The notes under the pieces were generated by a model that did no database searches, was not told where the DNA came from, and saw only the letters and a list, made by a program, of their open reading frames with translations. Source: Gillisia sp. Hel1_33_143 (GTDB lineage Bacteria; Bacteroidota; Bacteroidia; Flavobacteriales; Flavobacteriaceae). Taken from it: a DNA stretch of 64,000 bases. The position numbers and the translations under genes were made by a program. This document shows, piece after piece, positions 24,645 through 44,706 of this stretch. The DNA is taken from the NCBI RefSeq assembly GCF_900104765.1, contig NZ_LT629737.1:186001-250000 (forward strand), given 5' to 3'. Numbering within the stretch: position 1 is the first letter of the stretch; each line of letters begins with the position of its first letter.

Positions 24645-25861
24645 GAAATATAATTTTAATAGTCACCGTGTTATTTTTCCTTCAGGCACAGGCACAAGAA
24701 TTACAGCCGTACATTCAGGAAGCGGAATCGAATAACCCTGAAATACAAGCTTTTGAACTTCGATATGAGATAGCAGAAGAAAAGGTGAATGAAGTTAATA
24801 CCTTGCCCAACTCTGAGGTTAGTGGTGGATATTTTGTTAGTGAGCCTGAAACCCGAACGGGTGCTCAGACAGCCAAATTATCTGTTAAGCAGATGATTCC
24901 TTGGTTTGGAACCATTACGGCACGTGAAAATTACGCGACCTCCTTGGCAGAAGCCGAATATTTAGAAATCACCATCGCAAAAAGAAAATTGGCTCTTTCC
25001 GTGTCACAATCCTATTACCGCTTATACTCCATCAAAGCAAGGCAACGTGTACTGGAAGAAAACATAGCACTTTTGGACACTTATGAGAAGCTCGCCCTGA
25101 CCTCCCTTGAAGTTGGAAAAGCTTCCGCAGTAGATGTTCTACGCCTACAAATACGGCAAAACGAACTTGTGGAGCGTAAGGAAGTGTTAGGGCAGGATTT
25201 TTTTGCAGAGCAAAGTGTTTTCAACAACCTTTTAAACCGTGATGAAAGTATGGATGTTGAGATATTTGATTCTTTGGATCTTCCTTCCATAGATCCTATG
25301 GTTTCCTTAAACTCTTTGAACATCCACCCAGAATTGTTAAAATATGATGAGCTATACGAATCTGTAGAACAGGCTGAACTGCTCAATCAAAAAGAGTCAC
25401 TGCCCGATCTTGGTTTGGGTGTGGACTATATTGCGGTGACTGAACGTCCCAATATGGATTTTAATGATAATGGCAAAGATATTTTGATGCCTATGGTATC
25501 TATATCTATCCCCATTTTCAACAATAGATATAAATCCATCACAAAGCAAAATAAGTTGAGACAACAGGAACTTGCAGCACAAAAGAATGATCGTAGGAAT
25601 AAGCTGGAAACAATATTGGTAACAGCTATAAGTACCCGAGAGGCTTCTCGAATAAGTTATAGAACGCAATTAGATAATTTGCAACAAGCGAATGATGCCG
25701 AGGAAATTTTGATTAAAAGTTATGAAAGTGGCAGTATCGATTTTAATGATGTGCTGGATGTTCAGGAATTACAATTAAAATTTCAGATCAGTAGTATTGA
25801 GTCTGTCAAGAATTATTATGTACAAATGGCCATTATCAATTATTTAAGTAACAATAACTAA
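24641..25861 (+). CDS. cusC: TolC-family outer-membrane channel (CusC-like)
   Basis: Signal peptide ending ...AQAQE, then about 390 residues with the TolC pattern: two long coiled-coil repeats (YKSITKQNKLRQQELAAQKN; YKAL-type repeats) and paired strands. Length is typical for Bacteroidota TolC homologues. It overlaps cusA by four bases and precedes cusB by 28 bases, completing an RND tripartite pump in the order A-C-B. Confidence 0.9.
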   Translation: MRNIILIVTVLFFLQAQAQELQPYIQEAESNNPEIQAFELRYEIAEEKVNEVNTLPNSEVSGGYFVSEPETRTGAQTAKLSVKQMIPWFGTITARENYATSLAEAEYLEITIAKRKLALSVSQSYYRLYSIKARQRVLEENIALLDTYEKLALTSLEVGKASAVDVLRLQIRQNELVERKEVLGQDFFAEQSVFNNLLNRDESMDVEIFDSLDLPSIDPMVSLNSLNIHPELLKYDELYESVEQAELLNQKESLPDLGLGVDYIAVTERPNMDFNDNGKDILMPMVSISIPIFNNRYKSITKQNKLRQQELAAQKNDRRNKLETILVTAISTREASRISYRTQLDNLQQANDAEEILIKSYESGSIDFNDVLDVQELQLKFQISSIESVKNYYVQMAIINYLSNNN

Positions 25862-25889: not shown

Positions 25890-27752
25890 ATGAAAAAATA
25901 CGGTATATACATAGGGATATTGATTGGTGGATTAGTGCTGGGATATGTAATATTCGGCACAGGTTCATCAAATGAAACCATGAATAGTGATGAGATGGCT
26001 GAAATAGCTGACGAGCATGGTCATGGAACGGAAAATGGGGAACCGCAAATGTGGACCTGTTCCATGCATCCACAAATTATGCTACCTGAACCTGGGGATT
26101 GTCCAATTTGTGGAATGGATCTAATTCCTGCGGAACAAAGTGCTGGGGGGTTGACAGCAGACCAATTTAAAATGACGGAAAATGCATTGGCATTGGCCAA
26201 CATTCAAACAACTTTGGTAGGTGGTTCAGGCCTAGAAGACAATACCCTCGTACTTTCTGGTAAAGTAATGGAAAATGAAGAATTAAATGCAGTACAAGTA
26301 TCTTACTTTGCTGGAAGGATAGAAAAACTCTATATTAATTTTACTGGCGAACAGGTAAATAGGGGTCAACTTTTGGCGACAATATATTCGCCAGAATTAG
26401 TTTCAGCACAACAAGAACTTTTAACCACGGCTTCTTTAAAAGAATCACAGCCTGGTCTATACAAGGCTGTTAGAAACAAATTAAAGCTTTGGAAACTTTC
26501 AGAAAAACAAATAAATAGTATTGAATCTTCTGGTCAAGTAAAAGAAAATTTCCCGGTCTATGCAACCGTATCAGGAACAGTAACGGATAAAATGGCGCAG
26601 GAAGGTGATTATATTAAACAAGGACAACCTCTGTATAAAATAACAGATTTAAGTTCTGTGTGGGCAATGTTTGACGCTTATGAAAATCAGATTTCCAGTT
26701 TACAGGAAGGTCAAGAAATCCAGATTGCCACAAATGCTTATCCCGCCAAGGAATTTACCGCCAAGATATCCTTTATAGATCCCGTTTTAAATACGGCATC
26801 GCGAACAGTGAAAATTCGTGCCGTACTGCCCAATAACGAAGATCTCTTTAAACCCGGGATGTTTCTTCAAGGAAAGGTCAAGGGACTTACCAATGATGGA
26901 AATGAGACTATAGTTGTTCCGCAAAGCGCGGTAATGTGGACCGGGGAACGCTCTGTAGTTTATGTAAAGTCTAATGATGATGCACCCGTTTTTGAACTCA
27001 GGAAGGTAAAGCTTGGGAAATCCCGTGGCGATCAATATGAAATACTTGAAGGTTTACAGAATGGGGAGCAAATTGTAACCCAAGGTACCTTTACGGTAGA
27101 TGCTGCTGCACAATTAAAAGGCAAAAAATCAATGATGAGTCCAGAAGGCGGCAGCGCCAATACTATGCCTGGAATGCCCGGTATGAATATGGGAGGTGCA
27201 TCCAATACCAAAACGGACGATGAACAAATCAAGCAAGGTCAGGTAAGTACGAAGAAATTTTTGGAAGGCAAAGTTTATGATTTTCGTAAAGACACTCCGA
27301 AAGCGTTTAGACAACAATTGGATGCAGTGATCCATGCATACCTTTCTTTAAAAGACGGTTTGGTACAGGCCGATGAAAAAGCTACATCCAAATACAGCAG
27401 CGAATTGTTGAAAGCACTGCAAAACGTTGACGGCAATGTACTTAAAGGTGATGCCAAGGCATTTTGGGAAGAAAAGAAAAGCTTTTTGATGCAACACGCG
27501 AAGCTTTGCAAAGAGGCTTCTACCATTGCTGGAAAACGAGAGAACTTTATTTACTTGTCCCAGCCCTTAATAAAAGTGGTTGAGGCATATGGCCCGGGAG
27601 ATGAAAAACTTTATGTCGATTTTTGCCCAATGGCCAACAATAACAAAGGTGCTTTCTGGCTAAGTGCAGATCAGGAAATTCAAAATCCGTTTATGGCCGC
27701 CGATATGAGAAGCTGTGGAGAGGTGAAGCAGGAAATAACTTCGAATAAATAG
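25890..27752 (+). CDS. cusB: CusB-type periplasmic adaptor with HMBD and DUF3347
   Basis: Membrane-fusion protein with an N-terminal anchor (1-25), a heavy-metal-binding domain at about 55-80 (WTCSMHPQIM, then [10 protein letters not shown]), the barrel-sandwich hybrid and hairpin typical of HlyD-type adaptors, and a C-terminal DUF3347 domain (about 470-620). The DUF3347 end shows CPMANNNKGAFWLS and IQNPFMAADMRSCG. The HMBD and DUF3347 are both thought to gather metal for the pump. The middle contains a Met/Gly-rich linker (MPGMPGMNMGG). Operon: A-C-B, then regulator and a free DUF3347 protein. Confidence 0.95.
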   Translation: MKKYGIYIGILIGGLVLGYVIFGTGSSNETMNSDEMAEIADEHGHGTENGEPQMWTCSMHPQIMLPEPGDCPICGMDLIPAEQSAGGLTADQFKMTENALALANIQTTLVGGSGLEDNTLVLSGKVMENEELNAVQVSYFAGRIEKLYINFTGEQVNRGQLLATIYSPELVSAQQELLTTASLKESQPGLYKAVRNKLKLWKLSEKQINSIESSGQVKENFPVYATVSGTVTDKMAQEGDYIKQGQPLYKITDLSSVWAMFDAYENQISSLQEGQEIQIATNAYPAKEFTAKISFIDPVLNTASRTVKIRAVLPNNEDLFKPGMFLQGKVKGLTNDGNETIVVPQSAVMWTGERSVVYVKSNDDAPVFELRKVKLGKSRGDQYEILEGLQNGEQIVTQGTFTVDAAAQLKGKKSMMSPEGGSANTMPGMPGMNMGGASNTKTDDEQIKQGQVSTKKFLEGKVYDFRKDTPKAFRQQLDAVIHAYLSLKDGLVQADEKATSKYSSELLKALQNVDGNVLKGDAKAFWEEKKSFLMQHAKLCKEASTIAGKRENFIYLSQPLIKVVEAYGPGDEKLYVDFCPMANNNKGAFWLSADQEIQNPFMAADMRSCGEVKQEITSNK

Positions 27753-27779: not shown

Positions 27780-28349
27780 ATGAAAAAAGAATTTTATATT
27801 AAAAATATGGTTTGTCGCAGCTGTATTAAAATAATCAGGGATGCGCTTCAAAAAAAGAACTTGTGCATTACTGAAATTGAATTGGGAAAAGTCGTTATCG
27901 ACACAGAAAATGTCCTAGAAACCAAAAAACAACTTATTGAAGTTTTAAGGACTAATGATTTTGACCTTATTGAAAGTCCAGAGGATAAACTGGTAGAGCG
28001 CGTGAAAATAGCGCTTATCGAACTCATCCCCTTGATTCCTGAATATAGGGACATAAAATTATCAGATTATCTCAAGGACAGGTTGAATCAAGATTATTTC
28101 ACGCTGAGTAAATTGTTTTCATTTAATCAACAAATTACAATCGAAAAATACTTTATTAAACTCAAAATAGAAAAAGTTAAAGAGTTGATTCCTTCCCAAG
28201 AACATAATTTTACGGAACTATCACATTTGTTGGGCTACAGTAATCTTGGGCATCTTAGCGGACAATTTAAAACCGAGACAGGAATGAGTCTATCAGAATA
28301 TAAGACTATAGGATCAAATATTAGGAATCCATTAAACCGAATTCTATAA
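27780..28349 (+). CDS. HMA-AraC fusion regulator
   Basis: N-terminal HMA-like domain with MVCRSCIKII (C12, C15), then an AraC-type DNA-binding domain with both helix-turn-helix motifs: YFTLSKLFSFNQQITIEKYF and FTELSHLLGYSNLGHLSGQF, ending SEYK. Total 189 residues. The HMA domain is the likely metal sensor: binding of Cu or Hg would alter DNA binding by the AraC part (inference). It lies 27 bases after cusB, between pump and chaperone, suggesting feedback control of the cus operon. Confidence 0.8.
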   Translation: MKKEFYIKNMVCRSCIKIIRDALQKKNLCITEIELGKVVIDTENVLETKKQLIEVLRTNDFDLIESPEDKLVERVKIALIELIPLIPEYRDIKLSDYLKDRLNQDYFTLSKLFSFNQQITIEKYFIKLKIEKVKELIPSQEHNFTELSHLLGYSNLGHLSGQFKTETGMSLSEYKTIGSNIRNPLNRIL

Positions 28350-28423: not shown

Positions 28424-28978
28424 ATGAAAATAGTAAAAATAAGTATAGCTGCTGTGGTGGCATTTGGATTGTTCAGTTTTACAACTTCCTGTAATCAAAT
28501 GGGAAATAAAAATGATAAACACATGATGGATGAAACAATGGATAATAGTTCGATGGGTACAATGATGGGCGAAAATGAGGAAATGGGGAGTTCAGAACAA
28601 CAAGATGAATTTTCCATGATAATATCATCCTATCTTGAAATTAAGGATGCCTTGGTTTCCGATGATTCCGAAGCTGCTCAGTCAGCGGCGAAGAAAATGG
28701 CTAAAATGGATAGTGACATTGCATCTTTTGCCAATGCAATAGCTGGTTCCAACGATTTAATGGAGCAACGTAAAAATTTCAGTAAAATGTCCACTGCTCT
28801 CTATGCAAAAGCCAAGGACAAAAATCTTGAGAACACCCTGTATTGGAACTATTGTCCAATGGCGAATGACGGTAATGGTGCCAATTGGTTAAGCATGAAC
28901 GAAAAGATCCGCAATCCTTATATGGGTCAAAAAATGCCAGGTTGTGGATCTGTAAAAGAAACTTTAAACAATAAATAA
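28424..28978 (+). CDS. DUF3347 lipoprotein, Met-rich N-terminus
   Basis: Lipobox SFTTSC, then a Met-rich stretch (MMDETMDNSSMGTMMGENEE), then DUF3347 with CPMANDGNGANWLS and IRNPYMGQKMPGCG. Its domain end matches that of CusB most closely in the NANGAxWLS part. It is probably a periplasmic copper-capturing partner of the cus pump. It is fifth of the five DUF3347 modules in the window. Confidence 0.85.
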   Translation: MKIVKISIAAVVAFGLFSFTTSCNQMGNKNDKHMMDETMDNSSMGTMMGENEEMGSSEQQDEFSMIISSYLEIKDALVSDDSEAAQSAAKKMAKMDSDIASFANAIAGSNDLMEQRKNFSKMSTALYAKAKDKNLENTLYWNYCPMANDGNGANWLSMNEKIRNPYMGQKMPGCGSVKETLNNK

Positions 28979-29067: not shown

Positions 29068-30411
29068 ATGGATGCACAGATAGAAAGATTTTACGATGAA
29101 GATTTAGCGCATGCATCTTATGCTGTTTTAAGCGATGAAGAAGTAGCGTTAATTGATCCCGGAAGAAACCCTCAACCTTATTATGATTTTGCCAAAAAGA
29201 ACAATGCCAACATTATTGCAGTTGTCGAAACTCACTTGCATGCCGATTTTGTAAGTAGTCATTTGCAAATTCAGAAAGAAAAGGGAGCAGTTATTTATGC
29301 CAGCAAGTTTGCTCAAGCAAAATATCCTCATATTACCTTCGATCAAGATGATGTTCTCGCAGTAGGTAACATTGAATTGAAGGCCCTGAACACACCTGGA
29401 CATTCTCCGGACAGTATTAGCATTTTGCTCGTGGATGAACGCGATACAAAAAGGGCTGTTTTTACAGGAGATACGCTCTTTGTGGGCGATTTAGGTAGGC
29501 CTGACCTTCGGGAAGAGGAAGGAGATACGGACACTCAAGAGAAGGAATTAGCCCGACAAATGTATTCCTCTACCCGTAACGTATTAATGAAATTGGGAAA
29601 AGATGTCGAAGTATATCCTGCTCATGGTGCTGGTTCCCTCTGTGGAAAAAATATCAGTAGTGACCTATCCAGTACAATTGGGCGGGAGTTGGAGGAGAAC
29701 CCTGCATTACAGCCTATGGATGAAGACGTTTTTGTTCAATTTCTATTAGACGACCAGCCCTTTATACCGAAATATTTCAAACACGATGTTTCCTTAAATA
29801 GAAATGGTGCTGATTCTTTTGATGAAAGTTTGAAAGCTGTACCGCTGGTTGAAAATGAAACATTTCAGGATGGTATTGCAATTATCGACGCCCGTTCGCA
29901 GCAAGAGTTTAAAGCAGGGCATCACGCTGGTGCAATAAATATTGCGGCAGGGGGTAAATTTGAAACTTGGTTGGGCACTATTGTGCCGCCTCAAGAATCT
30001 TTTTACCTAGTGACCGAAAACAAAGAAACCCTGAAAAATTTATTGGAAAAGACGGCGAAGATCGGATACGAAAAAAGCATTAAAGCAGCTATAATAAGTC
30101 CTAATAGTGCCACAAACGAAGAACCAGAATTGGATATGGGCCATTTCAAATCACACAAACAGGATTATCAGATTTTGGACGTAAGAAATGAACCTGAATT
30201 GGAGAGTGGTAAAGTTTTCGAAGAGGCTGTTTCCATTCCTCTTCCCGAATTGGCGGACCGTATTCGGGAGATTGACCCTAAAATACCAGTAGTGGTTCAT
30301 TGCGCTAGTGGCTATCGGTCTGCCATAGCCGCAAGTTTGATAAAAAACCTGCTTCCGGATATTAAAGTCTATGATCTGGGGGCGGAGGTAAAAGATTTTA
30401 AGACAAGCTGA
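29068..30411 (+). CDS. Persulfide-dioxygenase-like MBL-rhodanese protein
   Basis: N-terminal metallo-beta-lactamase fold with THLHADF (about 52-58), TGDTLFVGDLGRPDL and HGAGSLCG, matching the ETHE1/persulfide dioxygenase group. Two rhodanese domains follow: the first (IAIIDARSQQEFKAGHHAGA) lacks a catalytic Cys, the second has it in VVVHCASGYRS. Such enzymes oxidise GSH-persulfide or related sulfane sulfur. In this copper block it may protect thiols or supply sulfide chemistry (inference). No transcriptional neighbour overlaps it. Confidence 0.85.
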   Translation: MDAQIERFYDEDLAHASYAVLSDEEVALIDPGRNPQPYYDFAKKNNANIIAVVETHLHADFVSSHLQIQKEKGAVIYASKFAQAKYPHITFDQDDVLAVGNIELKALNTPGHSPDSISILLVDERDTKRAVFTGDTLFVGDLGRPDLREEEGDTDTQEKELARQMYSSTRNVLMKLGKDVEVYPAHGAGSLCGKNISSDLSSTIGRELEENPALQPMDEDVFVQFLLDDQPFIPKYFKHDVSLNRNGADSFDESLKAVPLVENETFQDGIAIIDARSQQEFKAGHHAGAINIAAGGKFETWLGTIVPPQESFYLVTENKETLKNLLEKTAKIGYEKSIKAAIISPNSATNEEPELDMGHFKSHKQDYQILDVRNEPELESGKVFEEAVSIPLPELADRIREIDPKIPVVVHCASGYRSAIAASLIKNLLPDIKVYDLGAEVKDFKTS

Positions 30412-30492
30412 TTTAAACGAAAACAAATTTGCTGTAATTAATAATAGTAGAAATTAGATAATTGAATATTAACGATTAATAATTAAAACAAA

Positions 30493-30954
30493 ATGAAAAA
30501 TTTAATAAAAAACACCATCGCAGTACTTGTTTTGGCGGTAATAATGTCAACAAGCCTGTATGCACAGGAGAATAAAGAAATGTCCAAAATGATGAAGGAC
30601 AATCAGAAGAAAGAACAAGTCTACACAGCGATAATGGAGAATCCTGAATTAAAAAAGGAGATGATGCAACGAATGATGAAGGATGCCAAAAAAGATTCAA
30701 CATCTTGTAAAATGATGGGCGATATGATGATGAAGGATGGTCATATGCAGGATATGATGATGGGTAAAATGGTGGATGGCGCAGCCGAAGATGATGGCAT
30801 GTGCAAGATGATGTGCATGAAGATGATGGACAATGATAAGATGATGAATATGATGGATAAAATGAAGGAAGAAAAGTCGATGTCTCCCAAGAACAAAAAT
30901 GATAAATCCATCAAGAAAGGGCATAATATGGAAATGCATAAAGACGATAACTAA
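30493..30954 (+). CDS. Exported Met-rich protein
   Basis: Signal peptide (ending ...SLYAQ) followed by about 130 residues with very many Met, plus Asp, Lys and a few Cys: KMMGDMMMKDGHMQDMMMGK, DDGMCKMMCMKMMDND. No folded domain is seen. Met-rich stretches bind Cu(I) and are typical of periplasmic copper-tolerance proteins. Its stop codon TAATG overlaps the next ATG, so the two are cotranslated. Confidence 0.75.
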   Translation: MKNLIKNTIAVLVLAVIMSTSLYAQENKEMSKMMKDNQKKEQVYTAIMENPELKKEMMQRMMKDAKKDSTSCKMMGDMMMKDGHMQDMMMGKMVDGAAEDDGMCKMMCMKMMDNDKMMNMMDKMKEEKSMSPKNKNDKSIKKGHNMEMHKDDN

Positions 30955-31151
30955 TGAAAATGAACCAAATGATGAAATGGATGATTATAGGTTGCATAAT
31001 GGTGCTGATCCTTTCCTTTATTTGGCCATTTTTAGGTATTCAGGGCTATGGGAGCTGGCTATTCTTTGGATTAATATTCCTAGTTTGCTTGCTACCTATG
31101 CTTTTTATGAGTCGGAGAAACAAAAATAATGACAATCATGAGGGAAGTTAA
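30954..31151 (+). CDS. 65-residue Met-rich membrane protein
   Basis: Two hydrophobic segments (MIIGCIMVLILSFIWPF and SWLFFGLIFLVCLLPMLFM) separated by a short GIQGYG loop, with Met-rich N-terminus and Lys/Asn-rich tail. The start overlaps the Met-rich gene's stop. The overlap with the next PII-like gene is 23 bases. Function is unknown; it may anchor the Met-rich protein in the membrane (inference). Confidence 0.7.
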   Translation: MKMNQMMKWMIIGCIMVLILSFIWPFLGIQGYGSWLFFGLIFLVCLLPMLFMSRRNKNNDNHEGS

Positions 31152-31473
31152 AGCATTTATACGCGAAAAAAGAGCCAACGAGGTCTTGCGAGCTTTACGT
31201 ACTGAAGGTTTTAAGAGCTTAACGGTGTCCGAAGCGGAAGGAACGGGAAAATACACAAGAAAAGAGGATTCCCCTTCACTTCGGTTTCCGTTGACCCACA
31301 GTAAAATGTCCAAATTGGAAATTGTATGTAAGAAAGAGGATGTTGAAAGAATAGTTCATGTCATTCACGAACATAGCGAGAAAAATAAAAAGGGCGAAGG
31401 CCTTATTTATGTTTCTGAAGTGCTTGAAATTTACAAAGTAAGAACGGGCAAATTGAGTAAAGAGGATATATAA
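31129..31473 (+). CDS. PII-like protein (metal-associated subgroup)
   Basis: 114 residues with the PII fold: MREVKAFIREKRANEVLRAL (strand and helix 1), SLTVSEAEGTGKYTRKED (T-loop region) and KNKKGEGLIYVSEVLEIYKVRTG (B/C region). The canonical uridylylation tyrosine motif is replaced by a different T-loop, and the TGxxGDGKI B-loop reads KNKKGEGLI. This fits the PII-like subgroup (PII-NG) known to occur beside heavy-metal pumps rather than the GlnB/GlnK nitrogen sensors. A small ligand or metal could be sensed (inference). Confidence 0.8.
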   Translation: MTIMREVKAFIREKRANEVLRALRTEGFKSLTVSEAEGTGKYTRKEDSPSLRFPLTHSKMSKLEIVCKKEDVERIVHVIHEHSEKNKKGEGLIYVSEVLEIYKVRTGKLSKEDI

Positions 31474-31482
31474 CAATAAATT

Positions 31483-32571
31483 ATGGAAGAACCGGCTATA
31501 AAAATCAAGAAAGATATTATTGTTATAAGTGGCAGTAGTGGACTAATAGGGACCAGGCTCATAAACGAATTGGCGAAAAAATATCTGGTTATAGGACTAG
31601 ATAACATAGGTTATCCCTTTCCTCCTATTACTGCCGAATGTGTTTGTATCGATATCACTTCAGATAAAAGTATGGAAAACGCCTTTGAGCGTATCCGGTT
31701 CGCTTATGGAAATAGAATTGCTTCCGTAGTACACCTTGCGGCGTATTATGATTTTTCCGGGGAACCAAGTCCACTCTATCAAAAAATCACGTTGGAAGGC
31801 ACAGAACGCCTCTTAAGAGTTTTACAGGGGTTTGAAGTTGAGCAATTTGTATTTTCCAGTAGCCTACTGGTGTATGATTCTACTAAACCCGGCATAAATA
31901 TTACAGAAGAATCCCCGGTGAACCCAAAATGGGATTACCCTCAATCTAAAGTTGATACCGAGAAAATACTCCGTTCCAAAAGAGGTAAAATTTCGGTCAT
32001 GAATTTGAGGATAGCCGGAGTTTACAGCAACGAGGGTGATTCGATCCCTATTACCAACCAAATTCAGCGTATATACGAAAACCAGTTGACCAGTCATTTT
32101 TACCCCGGTAAATTTGACCGTGGAAACCCCTATGTTCACCTTGATGATCTTATTGCAGGTTTAATTAAAGCTATAGAAAAAAGGAAAGAATTCTCAGGGA
32201 TGACCACCATTAACCTGGGCGAACCCGAAACAATGAGCTTTATTGAGCTACAGAATGAAATTGCACGTTTGCTTTTTAATAAAGAATGGAAAACTTATAA
32301 GATTCCAAAATTCGTAGCAAAAACTGGTGCATGGGTTCAGGGCCTCTTTGGTGATTCCTTTATCAAACCCTGGATGGTCGATTTGACGGATGACCACATG
32401 GAACTCGATATTTCGCGTGCCAATAAAATGCTTGATTGGGAGCCAAAACATCGTTTGCGCACTACGCTTCCGAAGATAATAGATAACTTAAAGTCAGATC
32501 CTCAAAAATGGTACAAGGAAAATGACCTTAAACCTCCTTCCGATTTAAAAGAAAAGCAGTCCGAAAAATGA
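31483..32571 (+). CDS. NAD-dependent epimerase/SDR protein
   Basis: Extended short-chain dehydrogenase of 362 residues. NAD motif GSSGLIGTRL near the N-terminus, the active-site tyrosine and lysine in YPQSK, and a C-terminal substrate region. It resembles sugar-nucleotide epimerases and reductases in general. Located 10 bases after the PII-like gene, it is part of the small conserved group, but the substrate is unknown. Confidence 0.85.
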   Translation: MEEPAIKIKKDIIVISGSSGLIGTRLINELAKKYLVIGLDNIGYPFPPITAECVCIDITSDKSMENAFERIRFAYGNRIASVVHLAAYYDFSGEPSPLYQKITLEGTERLLRVLQGFEVEQFVFSSSLLVYDSTKPGINITEESPVNPKWDYPQSKVDTEKILRSKRGKISVMNLRIAGVYSNEGDSIPITNQIQRIYENQLTSHFYPGKFDRGNPYVHLDDLIAGLIKAIEKRKEFSGMTTINLGEPETMSFIELQNEIARLLFNKEWKTYKIPKFVAKTGAWVQGLFGDSFIKPWMVDLTDDHMELDISRANKMLDWEPKHRLRTTLPKIIDNLKSDPQKWYKENDLKPPSDLKEKQSEK

Positions 32572-32601
32572 TATAAAATTAACCCACCAAAAAAAACCAT
32601 T

Positions 32602-34140
32602 ATGGCAACTGAAAAACAGAACCCAAGTAATCAGAATCCCCAAAAGACAGAAAAGAAACACGGGAAAATGGGAAAACGAGGAGTCACTCGGCCAATGTCT
32701 GATATGAAAATGGATGGGGGGAATGGAATGATGATGGATTCTGGGCAACGGAAAGAGATGTTGATCGCACACCATAAACAGACTCTTTGGGTGTATTGGG
32801 TGGTTATACTTTTAGGGGTATGGATGATTTTTTCCCCGCTTACTTTTGATTACGGAAATAATGTGGTATCTCCTAGCGGCGGAAGGGATGTCTGGCTTTC
32901 CCTTGCAGACCGTATAGCGGCAATGCGCTGGAGCGATATCATAAGTGGTTTGTTATTAATATTTTTTGGCTGGCGCTCCCTAAAACCGAATAGGCCTTAT
33001 AGCGTCTGGATTGCCTGTTTTGTAGGAATATGGATAAGCATGGCTCCATTAATATTTTGGGCCCCTACGGCCATAGCATATTATAATGGAACCATGGTTG
33101 GTGCTTTGGTAATCGCCCTAACCATTCTAATCCCTGGAATGCCGAATATGATTATGTATATGAAAATGGGAGGTGATTTGCCCACAGGTTGGTCTTATAA
33201 TCCTTCGAGTTGGCCACAACGATGGATTATGATCGTTCTTGCATTTATGGGTTGGATAGCCGCCCGTTATTTGGCGGCATTTCAGTTAGGCTACGTGGAT
33301 TACGCCTGGGACCCATTCTTCGGTGATGGCACTTTAAATGTTCTAAATTCAGATATGTCACATTCCTGGCCGGTATCGGATGCCGCTTTGGGATCTTTTG
33401 CATACACCTTGGAATTTTTAATGGGCTTTATGGGAGCCACTTCTCGATGGCGTACAATGCCGTGGATGGTCACTTTTTTCGGTATTTTGGTTATTCCACT
33501 AGGATTTGTCAGTATTTTTTTAGTGGTATCCCAACCCCTAACCGTGGGAGCTTGGTGTGCACTTTGCCTATTCACCGCAGCGGTAATGCTGCCAATGATT
33601 CCATTGCAGATCGATGAAGTGATCGCCATGTGGCAGCATATGGTACAAAGAAAACGCAAGGGAGATTCTTTATGGAAGGTCTTCTGGAAAGGAGGGGATG
33701 CAATAACAACAAAAATGGATGAACGTTCTCCTGGACTTGTCGAACTCCACGAAAGCCCCTGGAAGGTATTTAAATCCTCTATTTGGGGAATGACTGCTCC
33801 TTGGCAATTGACCGTCGCCACACTCCTGGGACTATGGTTGATGTTTTCCCCTACTGTGTTTGGTGTGGGAATAGAAACCCGCGCGGCGGACCTAAATCAT
33901 TTAGGTGGTGCCTTGGTTGTGGTAATGGCAGTAGTTGCTATGGCAGAGGTCTTGAGGACCTTCCGCTATCTGAATGTGCTGTTGGGCTTAGCACTGATTT
34001 TATTGCCTTGGTTTATTGATGACGGAAATATATCGCTCAACGTCAGTAGCAGTATAAGTGGTCTTATTATTATGATGCTTTCTTTTTCCAAAGGCACCAT
34101 TAGGGAAAAATATGGCTTATGGGATAAGTATATTAAGTAG
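32602..34140 (+). CDS. SPW-repeat membrane protein with VKOR-like segment
   Basis: Multi-span protein of 512 residues, with a Met-rich cytosolic N-terminus (MSDMKMDGGNGMMMDSG). SPW-type segments (WMIFSPLTF, ISMAPLIF, LWLMFSPTVFGV) mark two SPW domains at about 65-145 and 410-500. The middle carries QPLTVGAWCALCLFTA, a WCxxC motif like that of vitamin K epoxide reductase-type thiol-disulfide enzymes. The combination suggests membrane thiol-redox chemistry. It lies between the SDR and the second multicopper oxidase. Confidence 0.75.
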   Translation: MATEKQNPSNQNPQKTEKKHGKMGKRGVTRPMSDMKMDGGNGMMMDSGQRKEMLIAHHKQTLWVYWVVILLGVWMIFSPLTFDYGNNVVSPSGGRDVWLSLADRIAAMRWSDIISGLLLIFFGWRSLKPNRPYSVWIACFVGIWISMAPLIFWAPTAIAYYNGTMVGALVIALTILIPGMPNMIMYMKMGGDLPTGWSYNPSSWPQRWIMIVLAFMGWIAARYLAAFQLGYVDYAWDPFFGDGTLNVLNSDMSHSWPVSDAALGSFAYTLEFLMGFMGATSRWRTMPWMVTFFGILVIPLGFVSIFLVVSQPLTVGAWCALCLFTAAVMLPMIPLQIDEVIAMWQHMVQRKRKGDSLWKVFWKGGDAITTKMDERSPGLVELHESPWKVFKSSIWGMTAPWQLTVATLLGLWLMFSPTVFGVGIETRAADLNHLGGALVVVMAVVAMAEVLRTFRYLNVLLGLALILLPWFIDDGNISLNVSSSISGLIIMMLSFSKGTIREKYGLWDKYIK

Positions 34141-34155
34141 AAAAATTAAAACAAT

Positions 34156-35781
34156 ATGGATATTGAAGAGCTTGATCGTAGAAAATTTATAAAATTGGGC
34201 AGCACGGGAGCCGCTGTTCTCCTCTCGTGGCCCTTTCTAAATTCTTGCGAAGGACTTTCATCTAAAAAAAATGAAAGTTCAGATCCTAATTTCGAACCAG
34301 ATCTGGATATTGATCTTACCGCCAAGGAAAGTCAAGTACCCTTTTTTCAAGGAAGTTCCACAAATGTTTGGATGTTTGAGGCCAAATTGAATACCGGCGA
34401 CCCCAATCCGGTTCAACACCTAGACGGTAGTTATCTAGGCCCAATACTGCGTGTGCAGAAAGGCCAAAAGTTAAGGATCCGTTTTAAAAACCAGTTGCCT
34501 GAAAAAAGTATTGTGCATTGGCACGGTATGCACGTACCGGAAAAATATGACGGCCATCCCAAAGATGTTATAGAAAATGGGGAAACCTATATTTATGAAT
34601 TTGAGATTATGAACCGTGCGGGCACGTATTGGTTTCACCCACATCCACACGGGCGCACAGGTCCACAGGTCTACAATGGACTGGCAGGAATGCTTATAGT
34701 TAGTGACGATGAGGAAGAGAAACTGAACCTGCCCAAAGGTGAATTTGATATTCCAATTGTCATTCAGGACAGGGCATTTGATGAGGATAATCAGCTCCTA
34801 TATCTGAACAGGGGGCGAATGGATAAAATGATGGGCTTTTTAGGAAACCAAATTTTTATTAATGGAAGGCCAGATAAAACATTATCCTTAAAATCCGGTT
34901 CTACATATCGGTTAAGACTACTTAATGCATCAAATTCACGTTTTTATAAACTCGGTTGGTCTGATGGAACACCGCTTACCGTGATCGGGATTGACGGCAG
35001 TCTTTTGGAAAAGCCACGATCGATGCCCTATATGATGTTGGGAGTGGCTGAACGTGTGGATATATGGCTGGATTTAAAAGATAAACCTAAAGGAACCGAA
35101 CTGACTTTGAAAAGCCTGTCCTTTTCGGCAGGGATGATGAGCATGGGCATGATGGGTCAAATGAGAAGTAACCTTCCGCTGGGCAGTGAATATGATGTAT
35201 TAACGATTTCTTTGGATGAATCGGGAAACAACAGTTTTATACTTCCTGAAAAACTCATTGTTTTTAATAAAATAGATCCTTCCGAAGCCATAAATGTGAA
35301 AAATCCAAGAACCTTCAAATTTTTTATGCAACGCATGCAATGGACCATCAATGGTAGGACCTGGGAGGAAACAGAGGTGGCAGGTGAAGAAATCGTAAAA
35401 TTAAATACCACCGAAATATGGCAGTTGGTAAATAGTGGTGGTGGCATGATGGGTAATGGTGGTATGATGGGCGGAAAAGGAATGATGGGAAACGGCGGCA
35501 TGATGAATGGCGGTATGATGCAAATGCCCCATCCCATTCATATACATCAGGTTCAATTCAATATTCTGGAAAGGGATACATCGGATATGGATCCTGAGGT
35601 GTGGAATTCCGTAAGGGAGGGATTTATAGATGACGGCTGGCAGGATACGGTATTGCTAATGCCCGGAATGAAAATAAAGATCATCATGCGTTTTGAGGAC
35701 TTTAAGGGCTTGTTTCTTTATCACTGCCATAATTTGGAGCACGAGGATATGGGCATGATGCGGAACTATAAAATAGAGTAG
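34156..35781 (+). CDS. cueO: CueO-like multicopper oxidase
   Basis: 541 residues with a Tat-type signal (RRKFIKLGSTGAAV) that ends in a lipobox-like LNSC. The copper motifs are all present: HWHG (121-124), HPHPHG (161-166), HPIHIH (459-464) and HCHNLEHEDMGMM (523-535). A Met/Gly-rich loop (about 427-457, repeats of GGMM and GNGG) precedes the third motif, as in CueO's substrate Cu(I) loop. Expected role: oxidation of periplasmic Cu(I). It is independent in sequence from the fused oxidase at 11644. Confidence 0.9.
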   Translation: MDIEELDRRKFIKLGSTGAAVLLSWPFLNSCEGLSSKKNESSDPNFEPDLDIDLTAKESQVPFFQGSSTNVWMFEAKLNTGDPNPVQHLDGSYLGPILRVQKGQKLRIRFKNQLPEKSIVHWHGMHVPEKYDGHPKDVIENGETYIYEFEIMNRAGTYWFHPHPHGRTGPQVYNGLAGMLIVSDDEEEKLNLPKGEFDIPIVIQDRAFDEDNQLLYLNRGRMDKMMGFLGNQIFINGRPDKTLSLKSGSTYRLRLLNASNSRFYKLGWSDGTPLTVIGIDGSLLEKPRSMPYMMLGVAERVDIWLDLKDKPKGTELTLKSLSFSAGMMSMGMMGQMRSNLPLGSEYDVLTISLDESGNNSFILPEKLIVFNKIDPSEAINVKNPRTFKFFMQRMQWTINGRTWEETEVAGEEIVKLNTTEIWQLVNSGGGMMGNGGMMGGKGMMGNGGMMNGGMMQMPHPIHIHQVQFNILERDTSDMDPEVWNSVREGFIDDGWQDTVLLMPGMKIKIIMRFEDFKGLFLYHCHNLEHEDMGMMRNYKIE

Positions 35782-35799
35782 TAACTTAAATTAAAAATT

Positions 35800-35925
35800 A
35801 TGGGAGATATGGAAATGGACGGCTTTTGTTGGATGTGCACTGCCATGTGGGCAGGTGGAATACTATTAATAGCCTTGGTCATATATTTAATCTATCGTCT
35901 AGCGAAAAAAAACAAGAACCATTAA
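35800..35925 (+). CDS. 41-residue membrane microprotein
   Basis: MGDMEMDGFCWMCTAMWAGG followed by a single membrane span and a basic tail (YRLAKKNKNH). A C-W-M-C pair sits near the membrane face. Start 19 bases after the oxidase stop and end 1 base before the next ATG, so it is plausibly translated with its neighbours. No family recognised. Confidence 0.6.
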   Translation: MGDMEMDGFCWMCTAMWAGGILLIALVIYLIYRLAKKNKNH

Positions 35926-35926: not shown

Positions 35927-36460
35927 ATGGAGGAATTCAATTTGGCCGTCCTTATTTTACCCGGATTTTCTATAATCGGAGTTCTTTTGATGTATTGGTA
36001 TTTTAGAAAAAAAATTAAAGATAAATGGGTATATAACTATTATGTAGTTTCCATTGCTCTTATTGCACTCGTTTTCAATACTATCTGGGAATTGTTGCAT
36101 GGCCCATTATATAAAGGTTACCAATACGACTGGGAGCATATATCGATTTGCCTAATGGCGGCTTTTACAGATATGTTGACTACTCTGATTATGTTGTATG
36201 GGTTTGGCCTTTTTTATGAAAATATTTTTTGGATTCGAAAATTAAAATTGAGCAAGATAATTCTCGTAATAATTACGGGCGGAACCGGTACCATTTTATT
36301 GGAACGTTGGCATATAGCTGAGGGACATTGGACGTATGCCGAAAATATGCCAATAGTTCCTTGGATCGAGGTTGGACTCACTCCCCTATTACAGTTCACT
36401 ATTCTCCCCATTGTTATTTTTCTTGTTGGAAGAATAATTTCAAACAGACAATTTAAATAA
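35927..36460 (+). CDS. Five-span membrane protein of unknown function
   Basis: About five hydrophobic segments. Conserved-looking motifs TIWELLHGPLY, FTDMLTTLIM and ERWHIAEGHWTYAENMPIVP, with Glu/His/Trp residues near the membrane. No family is recognised, though the His/Glu pattern could bind a metal or a cofactor. It follows the microprotein directly and precedes a single-span protein. Confidence 0.6.
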   Translation: MEEFNLAVLILPGFSIIGVLLMYWYFRKKIKDKWVYNYYVVSIALIALVFNTIWELLHGPLYKGYQYDWEHISICLMAAFTDMLTTLIMLYGFGLFYENIFWIRKLKLSKIILVIITGGTGTILLERWHIAEGHWTYAENMPIVPWIEVGLTPLLQFTILPIVIFLVGRIISNRQFK

Positions 36461-36476: not shown

Positions 36477-36977
36477 GTGTATCAAAAAAGAGCATATAGA
36501 AATAAAAATGTAAAAAAGGAGATATCTCAAAAAAATAAAATTACCAAAAGGGATACAATAATTGCACTAATCTCTTTTCTTGGAATTTTTTTAGCAGCCG
36601 CTTTTTTTGCCTACAGAATGATGTTTATTAACCCTTCTGAAGTTCATCAAGCAGATAAAAACTTGGCTTATCAAATTGTGCCCAATAATGAAGTGTGTAT
36701 GTTAAACAACACGTATAGAACAGAAGCAATTCCATTTGTTTTAATAGGAAAGCACGCCTATTTTGGGTGCTGTAATAGCTGCACAGATCGGTTATTAAAA
36801 AATCCAGAAGAGCGATATGCAATAGATCCTATAACAAAAGTAGAGGTAGATAAATCTATGGCAATAATCCTACGAAAAGTAGATGATGACTCTTCAATAT
36901 ATTATTTCAATACAACTCACAATGCAAAAACTTTTATGATCAGGGAAAAGAAGAACCAAAAAACAGAACAAATATAG
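36477..36977 (+). CDS. Membrane-anchored TRASH/YHS-like protein
   Basis: One N-terminal membrane span (IALISFLGIFLAAAFFAY) and a periplasmic domain with NEVCMLNN, then a CC and C in YFGCCNSCTDRL. The C-(~40)-CxxC-type pattern and NNxY(R)xxAIPF resemble TRASH/YHS metal-binding domains. The only usable start is GTG. Located before the SCO gene, it could hand copper to it (inference). Confidence 0.55.
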   Translation: MYQKRAYRNKNVKKEISQKNKITKRDTIIALISFLGIFLAAAFFAYRMMFINPSEVHQADKNLAYQIVPNNEVCMLNNTYRTEAIPFVLIGKHAYFGCCNSCTDRLLKNPEERYAIDPITKVEVDKSMAIILRKVDDDSSIYYFNTTHNAKTFMIREKKNQKTEQI

Positions 36978-37007: not shown

Positions 37008-37628
37008 ATGACTGTGAAATTTCAACTTATTCTTTTAATAATAATGGGTTTGCTTACCTCTTGTGAAGATCAAAATAGACATTTGCCTATTCTTGGAAAT
37101 AAGGAAGTAGCCAACAATGAGGAAGATACAATTTATCACTCTATCCCCTATTTTAGCTTTATAGATCAGGATAGTCTTACAATTACGTCCAATACATTTA
37201 CAGATAAAATTTATGTAGCAGATTTCTTCTTTACATCCTGCCCCACCATCTGCCCAATAATGAAAAACCAAATGCAACGGGTATATGAGAAATTTAAGGG
37301 AAATAAAAATGTAGCTTTCCTATCTCACAGTATTGACCCATCTCACGATAGCGTACCAGTATTAAAAACATATGCAGAAGATCTTGATATTAATAATGGT
37401 CAGTGGCACTTTGTTACTGGTAATAGAGAAGAAATCTTTGCTATAGCCGAAAACCACTATATGGTAAGTGCCCAAGAAGATCCTTCTGCCCCTGGCGGAG
37501 CAATTCATAGTGGTGCGTTTATATTAATTGACAAACAAAAAAGGATTCGCGGGTATTATGATGGGACCAACACAGAAGAAGTCGATAAGCTGATTGAGGA
37601 TATTCCGATACTGCTTAACAATTATTAA
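37008..37628 (+). CDS. SCO1/SenC family copper chaperone lipoprotein
   Basis: Lipobox LLTSC then a thioredoxin fold of about 170 residues. The CuA-type metal site is intact: CPTICP in FFFTSCPTICPIMKN and the distal His in GAIHSGAFILID. SCO proteins bind copper with these two Cys and one His, and assemble cytochrome oxidase or act in thiol/copper redox. No cytochrome oxidase gene is near, so a role in copper resistance is likely. Start 30 bases after the TRASH-like gene. Confidence 0.9.
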   Translation: MTVKFQLILLIIMGLLTSCEDQNRHLPILGNKEVANNEEDTIYHSIPYFSFIDQDSLTITSNTFTDKIYVADFFFTSCPTICPIMKNQMQRVYEKFKGNKNVAFLSHSIDPSHDSVPVLKTYAEDLDINNGQWHFVTGNREEIFAIAENHYMVSAQEDPSAPGGAIHSGAFILIDKQKRIRGYYDGTNTEEVDKLIEDIPILLNNY

Positions 37629-38043: not shown

Positions 38044-38574
38044 ATGGATTCTTTAAGTAAGGCAATTTTTGAAAATAAGCAACTGGATATAGATTCACTA
38101 CCCAGATATGGAGAAGTGAAGTTTTCTTCACTTAATCCGAAATATCTCGTTAAACTAAATATAATCACAACTGCTGGTGCCTTGATATTTTTGGTAGGGC
38201 TTGGTGCAGGATATGTGCTTGTGGAAAACTATAGAGGCTTATTGGCATTTTTGGCGATCCTGTTTTTGCTAATTTTCTTTGGCTCTTACTATCGTAACTT
38301 TCAATTGCAGAAAAGAAACGGCTATGCAATCCGGGAAAGGGATATAATCTTCAAACGGGGCTTTATTTACAAAAAAACTACAGTAGTACCTTTTAACCGA
38401 GTGCAACATGTTTCTACGGGCAGGGATATATTGGACAAATTTTTAGGAATTTCAACTTTACGGGTTTTTACGGCCGGGGGTTCAGGAAGCGATATCGGAA
38501 TTCCTGGTTTGCTACCCAAAATTACGAGTGGCTTAAAGGAAGAAATTTCGAAAAGAACATCTTCTCATGATTAG
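38044..38574 (+). CDS. PH-domain membrane protein (YdbS-like)
   Basis: Two membrane segments (IITTAGALIFLVGLGAGYVL, LLAFLAILFLLIFFGSYY) followed by a bacterial PH domain (IRERDIIFKRGFIYKKTTVV, FNRVQHVSTGRD, LGISTLRVFTAGG). This is the YdbS half of the YdbS-YdbT pair. The gene overlaps its partner by 8 bases. The role is unknown; members can affect membrane stress or export. Confidence 0.85.
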   Translation: MDSLSKAIFENKQLDIDSLPRYGEVKFSSLNPKYLVKLNIITTAGALIFLVGLGAGYVLVENYRGLLAFLAILFLLIFFGSYYRNFQLQKRNGYAIRERDIIFKRGFIYKKTTVVPFNRVQHVSTGRDILDKFLGISTLRVFTAGGSGSDIGIPGLLPKITSGLKEEISKRTSSHD

Positions 38575-40157: not shown

Positions 40158-42659
40158 ATGAAACATACCTATCACATACACGGAATGACCTGCGACGGTT
40201 GCCGAACGCACGTCGAAAAAACGCTTTCTAATGTAGAAGGTGTAACCAGTACATCGGTCAATTTGGAAAAAGAAGAGGTCTCCATAGAAATGGAATCACA
40301 TATCCCCATTGAAAAATTTCAAGATGCCCTTAAAAATGATGGCGGTACATATTCCATCCACAAACCGGGCGAGCACAAACATACTTCAGAAAAAAAATCT
40401 GAAAAATTAAAAGGTCAAGGCACAGGTACGTTTTATTGCCCAATGCACTGCGAGGGAGATAAGACTTATGATAAACCAGGCGATTGTCCAGTGTGCGGAA
40501 TGGATTTGATTGAAGAAAAAAAACTCTCTGCAACACCGAGTGGACAATGGACCTGTCCTATGCATCCAGAGATAGTAAAGGATGCGCCGGGAGACTGCCC
40601 TATTTGTGGGATGGATCTTGTGCCGATGGAACCTGACCTTTCCGCAGAAGAGAAGAGCTACAAAAAACTTATTAAAAAGTTTTGGATTGCCGTAGGATTT
40701 ACATTGCCCATTTTGATTATTGCAATGTCAGATTTGCTCAATAACAATCCCTTAGTTTCCATTTTAAAAGTTGAATATTGGAATTGGATTCAATTAGCAC
40801 TATCTCTGCCGGTTGTATTTTATGCCTCCTGGATGTTCTTTGAACGTGCGTATCGTAGTATTATAACGTGGAATTTAAATATGTTCACGCTCATTGGTAT
40901 AGGTACAGGGGTTGCTTGGTTATTTAGCGTGTTTGGGATGTTTTTTCCAGATTTTTTTCCAGCCCAGTTTAAGACGGATGCTGGAACCGTTTTTGTTTAT
41001 TATGAGGCCACGACGGTTATTCTGACATTAGTTATGTTGGGGCAGGTTTTAGAAGCACGTGCACATAGTAAAACCAATTCTGCAGTAAAGGAACTCTTGA
41101 AACTGGCGCCAAATAAAGCCATTAAAGTCATCGATGGGGAAGAACAAGAGGTTGCTATTGATGATATTGAAATTGGTGATATACTTCGGGTAAAACCGGG
41201 CGATAAAATTCCAGTTGACGGAGTTTTATCAGAAGGGCAAACTTCTATTGATGAATCGATGATTACCGGCGAACCGATTCCGGTAAGCAAGGCCGAAGGA
41301 GATAAAGTTAGTAGTGGAACAATAAATGGTAACCAGTCTTTTTTGATGAAGGCCGAAAAAGTGGGAGCAGATACCCTACTCTCCCAAATCATTCAAATGG
41401 TTAATGATGCGAGTCGCAGTCGTGCGCCAATTCAAAAACTAGCAGATACATTTTCCAGTTATTTTGTGCCAATTGTGGTTCTTATTTCCGTGATTACATT
41501 TGCCGTTTGGGCAATATGGGGTCCAGAACCAGCTTATGTATATGCTTTGGTTAATGCTATTGCTGTTTTGATTATAGCATGCCCCTGTGCATTGGGTCTT
41601 GCCACGCCAATGTCTATAATGGTAGGTGTAGGTAAGGGCGCTCAGAATGGGGTGCTTATAAAAAATGCCGAAGCTCTTGAAAAAATGGACAAGGTAGATA
41701 CACTTATCGTGGATAAAACAGGTACTATTACTGAAGGGAAACCAGCGGTTGAACAAATAGGAGTTTTTGGAGATGGCTTTCGCGAAAACGAAATACTACA
41801 TTTTATCGCATCGCTTAATAGTTCAAGTGAACATCCACTTGCTGAAGCTACTTTGAAATATGGAAAAGAACAGAATACCGAAATCTCAAAAACTGAGAAC
41901 TTTAGTGCAGTCACAGGTAAAGGAGTTGAAGGAACAGTTGATGGTAAAAAACTCGATTTAGGAAATGCTAAAATGATGGAGCACGCCAATGCAACTATTT
42001 CATCACAAATGGAAACCGAAGCACAATCCTATCAAAAACGAGGTAAAACAGTTTCCTATTTGTCCGTTGACGGCAAAGTCTCGGGCTTTGTAGTAATCGG
42101 CGATAAGATAAAAGAGACCAGTGCCAAAGCAATCAAAGAGCTCCAAGCCAAAGGTATTGCAGTGATTATGATGACGGGTGATAACCACGATACCGCTCAG
42201 GCTGTTGCGGGTGATCTTGATCTTGCCGACTTCAAAGCAGGAATGCTACCACAAGATAAGTTAGAAGAAGTCAAAAAATTACAGGAAAAAGGAAAGGTGG
42301 TAGCAATGGCAGGTGACGGCATAAACGATGCTCCAGCATTGGCAAAAAGCGATGTAGGTATAGCAATGGGAACTGGAACGGACGTTGCAATTGAAAGTGC
42401 CGCTATAACCTTGGTCAAAGGGGATTTACACGGTATAGTTAAAGCAAGGAATCTGAGTGAAGCCGTAATGAAAAACATCAAACAGAACCTGTTTTTTGCA
42501 TTTATATATAACACGGTGGGAATTCCTATAGCTGCAGGAGTATTGTATCCCTTTTTCGGGCTATTGCTTTCCCCAATGATTGCAGCCTTGGCAATGAGTC
42601 TTAGTTCGGTCTCTGTAATTATAAATGCATTGCGGTTACGAACAAAGAAAATTAATTAA
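40158..42659 (+). CDS. copA: Copper-translocating P1B-ATPase
   Basis: Inner-membrane copper exporter of 833 residues. N-terminal HMA domain (GMTCDGC, C12 and C15), then two heavy-metal-binding (HMBD) motifs at about 93-117 and 132-157 (CPMHCEG...[14 protein letters not shown]...CPICGMDL), eight membrane helices, CPC at 475-477, the phosphorylated Asp in DKTGT (D519) and the [16 protein letters not shown] motifs. It is the single P-type ATPase here and uses ATP to pump Cu(I) to the periplasm, where the oxidases and Cus pump take over. Confidence 0.97.
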
Positions 42660-44182: not shown

Positions 44183-44504
44183 TTGTAGAATATAAAACAA
44201 ATAAAGATATTACTAATTTTCTTAACAATTAAAGGTGGGCAAACCGGCTTGGATAAGACAAGTGGCGTGGAGTAGGGACGCATTCCAGTCGGACTTGTTG
44301 TTTTTTACTTGGTGTCTAAAATAACATTTTTCCCACGAACGCTCGCTATTTGCGCTTAACCAATGTTACCCACTGGCTTTTTCCGTTCAGCTTGGTTTTC
44401 AGCGTAGGCAAAGACATACTCTTTTGCAATTTTTGGTGTAGCCATGGCTGGCGCGAATAGCAAATGTGTATGTCTTTTAGCAAGGGCTTTTTAGCAACAA
44501 CTTT
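44183..44504. other. Gap with a dispersed repeat
   Basis: Non-coding; holds GC-richer pieces than the neighbours and the repeat at 44429-44483, which also occurs at 50790. No gene is supported. Confidence 0.5.
44429..44483. repeat. Dispersed intergenic repeat, copy 1
   Basis: TTTTTGGTGTAGC and AGCAAATGTGTATG separated by about 17 variable bases; the copy at 50790-50845 shares both blocks and the CTTTAAG-like end. Each lies at the downstream edge of a - strand resistance gene set. Confidence 0.6.
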
Positions 44505-44615
44505 AGACGGATAAGTAACTCCTCCGTAAGAACGATAAGGACAACGATCTCCCTTGATTGGTGTCAGAACCGATTTACAATTCTCACACTTGTAAAAGAA
44601 TGGATAAACCTTTAC
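44505..44615 (-). pseudogene. Decayed GDCCVxC-type mer-associated gene
   Basis: On the - strand this reads VKVYPFFYKCENCKSVLTPI, then KGDRCPYRSYGGVTYPSK. It matches the family signature KCENC then GDCCVxCSYG, but the second Cys is R, the VxC is PYR and the CPPIQ end is lost. The upstream frame has a stop and no start. GDCCVxC proteins are part of mercury operons in Bacteroidota, and this lies just downstream of a MerA-like gene. Confidence 0.7.
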
Positions 44616-44706
44616 CGGTACTTACTCATCATTCGTATGTCAGCAATTGACACTGCTAATGGCCGATAATAATTATACTTCCGTAATTGATCGATTGATA
44701 CTTTAA

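Follow-up and report, generated by a model that had tools for sequence, protein, structure and literature searches.

Two Nested Conserved Gene Units in a Copper-Resistance Island of Gillisia sp. Hel1_33_143

Introduction

Copper islands are well mapped. For the core of one set of parts that recurs in them, we found no function in the literature searched, and what these genes do, and whether they belong together, is the question raised by a locus of Gillisia sp. Hel1_33_143 (Flavobacteriaceae; assembly GCF_900104765.1, contig NZ_LT629737.1). We analyzed a window of 64,000 nucleotides, i.e., positions 186001–250000 of this 3.48-Mb, one-contig genome, in which a block at positions 29068–35925 encodes a persulfide dioxygenase (PDO), a Met-rich protein (MetRich), a small membrane protein (smTM), a PII-type regulator, a short-chain dehydrogenase/reductase (SDR), a membrane protein with SPW and VKOR domains (SPW/VKOR) and a multicopper oxidase (MCO). 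A first-pass annotation had taken the gene order and overlapping starts to suggest a linked function of sulfur redox, a PII-like sensor and Cu(I) oxidation, and had seen in the block the strongest candidate for an undescribed metal-stress system. We find that the block is made of two nested conserved units, SDR–SPW/VKOR and MetRich–smTM–PII, together with accessory genes, PDO and the multicopper oxidase being looser partners. The strongest element of the set is the SDR–SPW/VKOR pair, which the first-pass annotation had not singled out.

Results

The extended SDR gene (31483..32571, plus strand; Epimerase, 4.9e-23) lies 30 nt ahead of the gene for the SPW–VKOR–SPW membrane protein (32602..34140, plus strand; SPW 1.2e-19 over three stretches, VKOR 4.3e-19). 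From one-per-species genomes we fetched the best 80 of 205 SPW/VKOR relatives, 51 of them in loci of at least 20 kb, so that the counts below describe the closest relatives. An SDR was found within 1.5 kb of SPW/VKOR in 33 of the 80 loci, spread over several phyla (28 with the SDR alone, 5 with a GH15/trehalase-like gene as well). In nine loci the two proteins were fused into a single polypeptide: an 801-aa protein of a Desulfobulbaceae locus (L081) and, among 12 plasmid SPW/VKOR loci that were chosen by hand rather than at random, the eight of Aquibium, Rhodanobacter denitrificans, Sinorhizobium meliloti 1021 (on pSymB; L253:7843-10473), S. meliloti ml21, Sphingobium, Cupriavidus (with a weaker SDR match, 2.6e-35), Croceicoccus and Limimaricola. 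Given their adjacency in many genomes and their fusion in others, SDR and SPW/VKOR appear to act as one unit. The SDR keeps GxxGxxG, D40 and Y152xxSK156 in 42–44 of 44 aligned rows (E under 1e-60 and more than 300 aa only), and these retained motifs point to a likely active NAD-type enzyme.

SPW/VKOR also has a second type of neighborhood, in which a GH15/trehalase-like gene alone adjoins it (28/80 loci); neither neighbor was present in 19/80. The SDR and GH15 neighborhoods clustered on the SPW/VKOR tree, with 6 label changes vs. about 19 when labels were shuffled, near-copies contributing to this difference. Overall, the GH15/trehalase-like gene was near SPW/VKOR in 33/80 loci and also in L169, L170, L256 and L257, and this neighborhood had no clear tie to copper chemistry. 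One contig, L010, was labeled Eubacteriaceae, and its SPW/VKOR grouped inside Bacteroidota, which is probably a binning error.

We then compared the surroundings of SPW/VKOR with 40 control regions of 20 kb, drawn from 15 single-contig genomes that were not matched to the SPW/VKOR genomes. CopA, CusA or MCO was present in 33/80 fetched loci vs. 2/40 controls (Fisher p 1.4e-5), and the same genes were present in 27/51 loci of at least 20 kb vs. 2/40 controls (Fisher p 7e-7). Among the hand-chosen plasmid loci, 11 were annotated (S. meliloti 1021 being the exception), and metal genes occurred in nine of these 11, namely those of Pontibacter, Haladaptatus, Manganitrophus, Aquibium, R. denitrificans, Stutzerimonas, Sphingobium, Croceicoccus and Cupriavidus. 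The sole metal-related gene of the S. meliloti ml21 locus was a ZIP transporter.

The SPW/VKOR protein has three cysteines in total (139, 319 and 322). A search yielded 109 hits, 95 of them of at least 420 aa, and 85 alignment rows remained after identical sequences and own copies were dropped, with near-copies retained. The VKOR CxxC (319/322) was kept in 84/85 of these rows, and the stretch of residues 208–318, in which the loop pair of known VKORs is located, contained zero cysteines in 82/85 and a single one in 3/85. By this alignment, SPW/VKOR is without the loop Cys pair of known VKORs. In an AF2 model (pLDDT 88.6), a VKOR-like part of four helices was accompanied by four long helices and by another four. 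VKOR structures ranked first when the model was compared with the PDB by Foldseek (E 0.17, prob 0.99). Because that search returned zero matches with E <0.001, the VKOR fold assignment leans on Pfam; phmmer against PDB chains likewise matched none to SPW/VKOR. A model of the L081 fusion, built without an alignment, was unusable (pLDDT 43). From charge and from what is known of VKORs, we infer that the SDR is cytoplasmic and the CxxC periplasmic.

The second unit begins with MetRich (30493..30954, plus strand), a 153-aa protein with a signal-like N-terminus, 34 Met and 3 Cys, for which neither Pfam nor NCBIfam gave a family at E 0.01, which has homologues in several loci and which is likely a periplasmic Cu(I) binder. 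The 65-aa open frame of smTM (30954..31151, plus strand) overlaps both the MetRich stop (by 1 nt) and the start of the PII gene (by 14 nt, or 23 nt from the first ATG); smTM matched no Pfam family, with only a Bax1-I match below the cut-off. The PII gene itself (31138..31473, alternative start 31129, plus strand; PF00543, 3e-17) is directly preceded by an smTM gene in the window, L008 (where smTM is broken), L169, L238 and L246, and the two genes overlap in the window and L246.

To place the window PII, we built a tree of 38 rows, having dropped L030 and L145 (<95 aa), L117 (>200 aa) and L002 (a duplicate of the window). A 32-row set including the window PII split with support 97/92 from a set of six, made up of four GlnB/GlnK-type rows, one of them the own-genome L001 classed from sequence, and of L163 and L164, both of them PIIs of metal loci. 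The PIIs of the window, L008 and the Pontibacter locus L169 formed one clade (98/95). A CusA-linked PII of Rhodanobacter sat on a long branch and was placed with weak support (87/57). Single residues were compared as well: K90 was kept in 2/34 non-canonical PIIs vs. 4/4 of the GlnB/GlnK type, Y51, which we take to be a T-loop residue, in 0/34 vs. 4/4, and Cys was found at position 65 in 14/34 vs. 0/4. A CusA or CopA homologue was present in 11/11 Bacteroidota PII loci of a first set (taken from 42 matching genomes) and in 13/15 further PII loci (from 21 further matches), some of these loci being near-copies (L242, L244). Two other PIIs of the same genome (L148 and L149) adjoin CusB and CusA, and a fourth (L150) lies in a locus without CusA and CopA. 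The window PII is not pump-adjacent; CusB ends 3.4 kb upstream, in the same island. Together, these sequence comparisons show that the window PII belongs with the PIIs of metal-efflux loci and not with GlnB/GlnK. A link between PII and metal efflux is of a known kind, and the new detail is the pairing of PII with a small membrane protein.

In the 80 SPW/VKOR loci, block partners were counted using phmmer cut-offs (PII 6, MetRich 10, smTM 11, PDO 2 and MCO 9); an earlier loose BLAST listing had contained partly low-complexity Met-rich/HMA matches. Homologues of MetRich, smTM, PII, PDO, SDR and MCO were found in 0/40 control regions. Since homologous parts recur together elsewhere and none occurred in the controls, the block is more than chance. 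A single conserved unit, as the first-pass annotation had it, was rejected: across the 80 loci the presence of PDO, of MCO, of PII and of the Met-rich gene varies from one to the next independently, and the SDR–SPW/VKOR pair stands as a separate unit that is fused in other genomes and also found without copper genes.

SPW/VKOR is rare in the family of the window (3/199 genomes searched, own genome included), and the best match in gene order was a plasmid of Pontibacter actiniarum DSM 19842 (L169), with CopA, MBL/PDO, HMA, Met-rich, membrane protein, P-II, SDR, SPW/VKOR and trehalase-like genes. Two of its hypothetical proteins (a 165-aa Met-rich and a 60-aa membrane protein) align with MetRich and smTM of the window. 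The order is thus conserved outside the window's family. Other loci were partial, reordered or decayed. A metagenome-assembled genome of Christiangramia (L008) carries MetRich, an smTM gene, PII, SDR, SPW/VKOR, MCO, a small open reading frame (ORF) and a 177-aa protein, with no PDO detected in the locus; L030 carries CopA, PDO, HMA, PII, SDR, SPW/VKOR and the 177-aa protein; and L063 carries CopA, a PDO remnant, HMA and an smTM gene, with SPW/VKOR further on and neither PII nor SDR detected. In L246 (Pontibacter sp. 172403-2), CopA, MetRich, an smTM gene, PII, PDO, HMA and SDR are found in a stretch without SPW/VKOR, and in L238 (Nafulsella) a PDO in two frames is accompanied by an smTM gene, PII and the 177-aa protein. 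L018, L021 and L022 show a less strict arrangement of PII, a UspA-like gene, MetRich, an smTM gene, SDR and SPW/VKOR; as the SPW/VKOR sequences of L021 and L022 are identical, these two loci are not independent. An order-wide DNA search matched 27/395 genomes, mostly in short chance-like pieces, and six of the 27 supplied regions (own, G906, G174, G731, G892 and G080). Some other Bacteroidota, too, have block parts grouped in their copper islands. The first-pass annotation had staked the linkage on gene order being conserved elsewhere; as it is conserved in some other genomes, the linkage stands on that count.

The looser partners flank the two units. The PDO-type metallo-beta-lactamase (MBL) protein (29068..30411, plus strand; Lactamase_B 4.9e-15, Rhodanese 2.2e-17 in two stretches) gave near-full-length matches to 3tp9 (6.3e-69) and to 3r2u (4.2e-52), which we take to be CstB, and has the motifs HLHAD, PGHS, GDTLF, PAHG and CxxGxR. 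Its gene is spaced 89 nt from the upstream and 81 nt from the downstream gene, and because of these gaps it may be a separate unit. The MCO (34156..35781, plus strand; Cu-oxidase_3, 3.3e-30) has a Met-rich stretch, an RR signal motif and the copper-ligand motifs HWHG, HPHPHG, HPIHIH and HCHxxxHxxxxM; among solved chains, the closest one carries the name bilirubin oxidase. The same genome holds a second cluster, L148 (G000:C1:297000-316900), of CusA, CusB, PII, a Met-rich protein and an MCO with 70% DNA identity to that of the window; this cluster is without SDR–SPW/VKOR.

All genes that the first-pass annotation named are intact, in frame and on one strand, as judged by open frames, Pfam and NCBIfam, and the overlapping starts are real. 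Besides the overlaps, the run is tight, with gaps of 9 nt (PII–SDR), 15 nt (SPW/VKOR–MCO), 18 nt (from MCO to a 41-codon ORF) and 1 nt (from that ORF to the gene for the 177-aa protein). The earlier block end, 35925, is the end of the 41-codon ORF (35800..35925, plus strand), which encodes a small membrane-type peptide with homologues in L008 and L016. The run extends past this point to SCO1 at 37628, with gaps of 16 and 30 nt, and is followed by a 415-nt gap. The genes concerned encode the 177-aa membrane protein (35927..36460, plus strand), which is unclassified, with no Pfam family above the cut-off, and has homologues in 13/80 SPW/VKOR loci and 0/40 control regions; a Cys-containing protein weakly resembling TRASH/NosL (36477..36977, plus strand; GTG start, Arc_trans_TRASH 0.0076, below the cut-off); and an SCO1/SenC copper chaperone (37008..37628, plus strand; PF02630, 1.6e-24).

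On the upstream side lie genes for a CusA-like heavy-metal RND permease (20904..24644, plus strand), used as reference in neighborhood mapping, a TolC-like outer-membrane efflux protein (24641..25861, plus strand) and a CusB-like periplasmic adaptor (25890..27752, plus strand), all three named from sequence. They are followed by those for a protein combining HMA with an AraC-type helix-turn-helix (27780..28349, plus strand), which is likewise named from sequence, may be a copper regulator of the island and has homologues in 25/80 SPW/VKOR loci and 0/40 control regions, and for a probably secreted DUF3347 protein (28424..28978, plus strand; PF11827, 8e-11). Downstream, the stretch 38044–40051 between SCO1 and a CopA-type P1B ATPase (40158..42659, plus strand; named from sequence) encodes a pair of neighboring proteins, of which the second has bacterial PH domains. 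The CopA homologue in the corresponding island of L008 is 82.6% identical, and there the bacterial-PH-domain protein pair sits after CopA. With SCO1 and DUF3347 assigned by Pfam, CusA, CusB and CopA named from sequence, and counterparts in L008, the predicted copper-efflux and -handling genes that surround the block make up a copper-resistance island of the Cus/Cop type. The metal-stress context proposed in the first pass is therefore borne out, the block lying in a copper/mercury-resistance island and its PII being of the metal-linked type.

Several other features of the window were noted. A mercury-type cassette lies on the reverse strand at 42887–53686, beside the copper genes, with a histidine kinase (42887–44200), a pyridine-nucleotide oxidoreductase (44707–46053) in addition to a MerA-like protein that combines HMA and pyridine-nucleotide oxidoreductase domains (47412–49151), a MerB match (46169–46780) and an SBF transporter (50838–51884). 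Three DUF3347 proteins are encoded within 5997–13956, where a second multicopper oxidase lies at 11644–13956. A tyrosine integrase (2576–3907; Phage_integrase, Arm-DNA-bind_5) marks the island as a possible mobile element that has integrated, and the copper-resistance island carrying the block is probably mobile.

We also scanned the window for regulatory sites. The -33/-7 pattern, which is the promoter pattern of Bacteroidota, was found 6 times vs. 5.76 expected, sigma-70-like sites 37 times vs. 39.6 expected, and terminator-like sites 13 times vs. 9.5 expected. Shared promoters for the block were rejected, the patterns being no better than chance; the scans gave no sign of shared regulation, whose absence the first-pass annotation had named as a point that would refute its reading.

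In the literature, within a search that had most subscription journals outside its scope, no paper joined ‘SPW repeat’ with copper or vitamin K epoxide reductase, none joined persulfide dioxygenase, copper and multicopper oxidase, and none was recognized as describing the block module; the recurring part set is apparently unstudied. A hypothetical VKOR is listed for Sulfobacillus plasmids and a plasmid-like region with metal-resistance genes, with no function given in the passages concerned (PMC6803676). PMC10434189 and PMC2864759 had no bearing on the module in the passages considered.

Discussion

We propose, giving the proposal as a whole an even chance of being right, that the block is an accessory copper-stress module of the copper-resistance island. 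MetRich would buffer periplasmic Cu(I), and the multicopper oxidase would oxidize it. smTM and PII could form a membrane-bound regulatory pair that tunes efflux or uptake to the energy or metal state, much as GlnK acts on AmtB. The SDR, cytoplasmic and using NAD(H), and SPW/VKOR would make up a membrane thiol-redox unit, with the CxxC near a presumed quinone site at the periplasmic face and a probable quinone link; this unit might repair or balance thiol chemistry upset by copper, and PDO would clear persulfides during copper stress. SDR–SPW/VKOR also occurs away from copper genes, so that in this reading it is probably a redox unit of general use that copper islands took up, not a copper-only enzyme; copper as its sole role, which we considered, is too strong given the homologues without copper genes.

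A number of observations weigh against this proposal. No CopA, CusA or MCO was nearby in 47/80 SPW/VKOR loci, although 29/80 loci were <20 kb, and PII and PDO were near only six and two of the 80. Metal genes are absent from the surroundings of the Limimaricola fusion, and that of S. meliloti sits among sugar-transport genes. In L008 two in-frame stops interrupt the smTM gene and the MCO is spread over two frames, so that decay or an assembly error has to be reckoned with; in L030 the PDO is spread over two frames and the PII is only a fragment; and the PDO–smTM–PII run of Nafulsella has no SDR or SPW/VKOR beside it. Two PII loci (L250 and L252, 2/15) are without CusA or CopA, and the PIIs L163 and L164, from metal loci, fall on the GlnB/GlnK side, so that the metal-linked PIIs are not one clean clade. 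The promoter scans described above point the same way.

These points bear on how the block is to be explained. It is possible, and to us clearly less probable than the module, that independent resistance and redox genes were gathered in a mobile metal island, their tight spacing reflecting packing and no joint system. The scarcity of PDO (2/80) and MCO (9/80) near SPW/VKOR would fit this, as would subsets that occur apart, such as PDO–smTM–PII in L238 and the second MCO–MetRich–PII–CusB–CusA cluster of the same genome, both without SDR–SPW/VKOR. Mere packing accounts poorly, however, for the recurrence of the block order in another family, for the single clade formed by the three block PIIs (window, L008 and L169), for overlapping reading frames and for the fusion of SDR with SPW/VKOR elsewhere.

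A copper-specific role for SDR–SPW/VKOR, in which the CxxC and conserved Met would bind Cu(I) and pass an electron to quinone, yielding a cuprous oxidase that needs no oxygen, in addition to the oxygen-dependent MCO, is in our judgment improbable. The enrichment of copper genes around SPW/VKOR, the conserved M180, M183, M187, M286, M329 and M332 together with the CxxC, and the missing loop Cys pair all speak for it, but copper genes are not found near many of the homologues, the metal site is only putative and the N-terminal Met-rich tail of SPW/VKOR was modeled at low confidence. That SPW/VKOR is instead an ordinary VKOR-type enzyme, forming disulfides in secreted proteins of the island, we regard as very improbable: the Pfam VKOR match, the retained CxxC and the best fold matches agree with it, yet the loop Cys pair is absent in 82/85 rows, the remaining three have no more than half of it, and an SDR is fused or adjacent. 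We think it unlikely, though worth stating, that SDR–SPW/VKOR, which is found in bacteria and haloarchaea, constitutes a membrane redox enzyme not described before, in which a chain of NAD(P)H at the cytoplasmic face, a quinone and a lone CxxC would deal with Cu(I), or with thiols damaged by copper, independently of oxygen, with its activity set by the PII/smTM pair.

If a VKOR works without loop cysteines and in association with an SDR, quinone-linked thiol chemistry would gain a new arrangement, and the question is testable, since S. meliloti 1021, a tractable laboratory strain, carries the fused form on pSymB. The PII part offers a concrete route to what metal-linked PII proteins sense.

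Among known systems, VKOR and DsbB are the closest to SPW/VKOR, which shares with them the VKOR domain match, a CxxC that starts the fourth helix and a modeled four-helix core. VKORC1 and DsbB have two conserved Cys pairs, according to PMC4555120, whereas SPW/VKOR is without the loop pair, has two flanking SPW domains and stands next to, or is fused with, an SDR. The window PDO resembles the CstB-type PDO–rhodanese proteins in its predicted order of MBL and rhodanese domains and in its catalytic motifs, but it differs in its copper-island setting and in having no sulfur-sensing regulator beside it among the frames inspected by eye. For the MCO, the best NCBIfam match is the CueO model, and the four copper-ligand motifs are shared with CueO, although the score of 264.6 bits does not reach the curated cut-off of 525. 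The window PII, finally, recalls PII-NG, which lies beside CzcABC in Geobacter and is described as a proteobacterial clade in PMC7726332 (citing Sant'Anna 2009): it has PF00543, stands apart from the GlnB/GlnK-type rows, and for most of its examined relatives CusA or CopA is present in the locus. It differs from PII-NG, as described there, in coming from outside the Proteobacteria and in being paired with a small membrane gene rather than with CusA.

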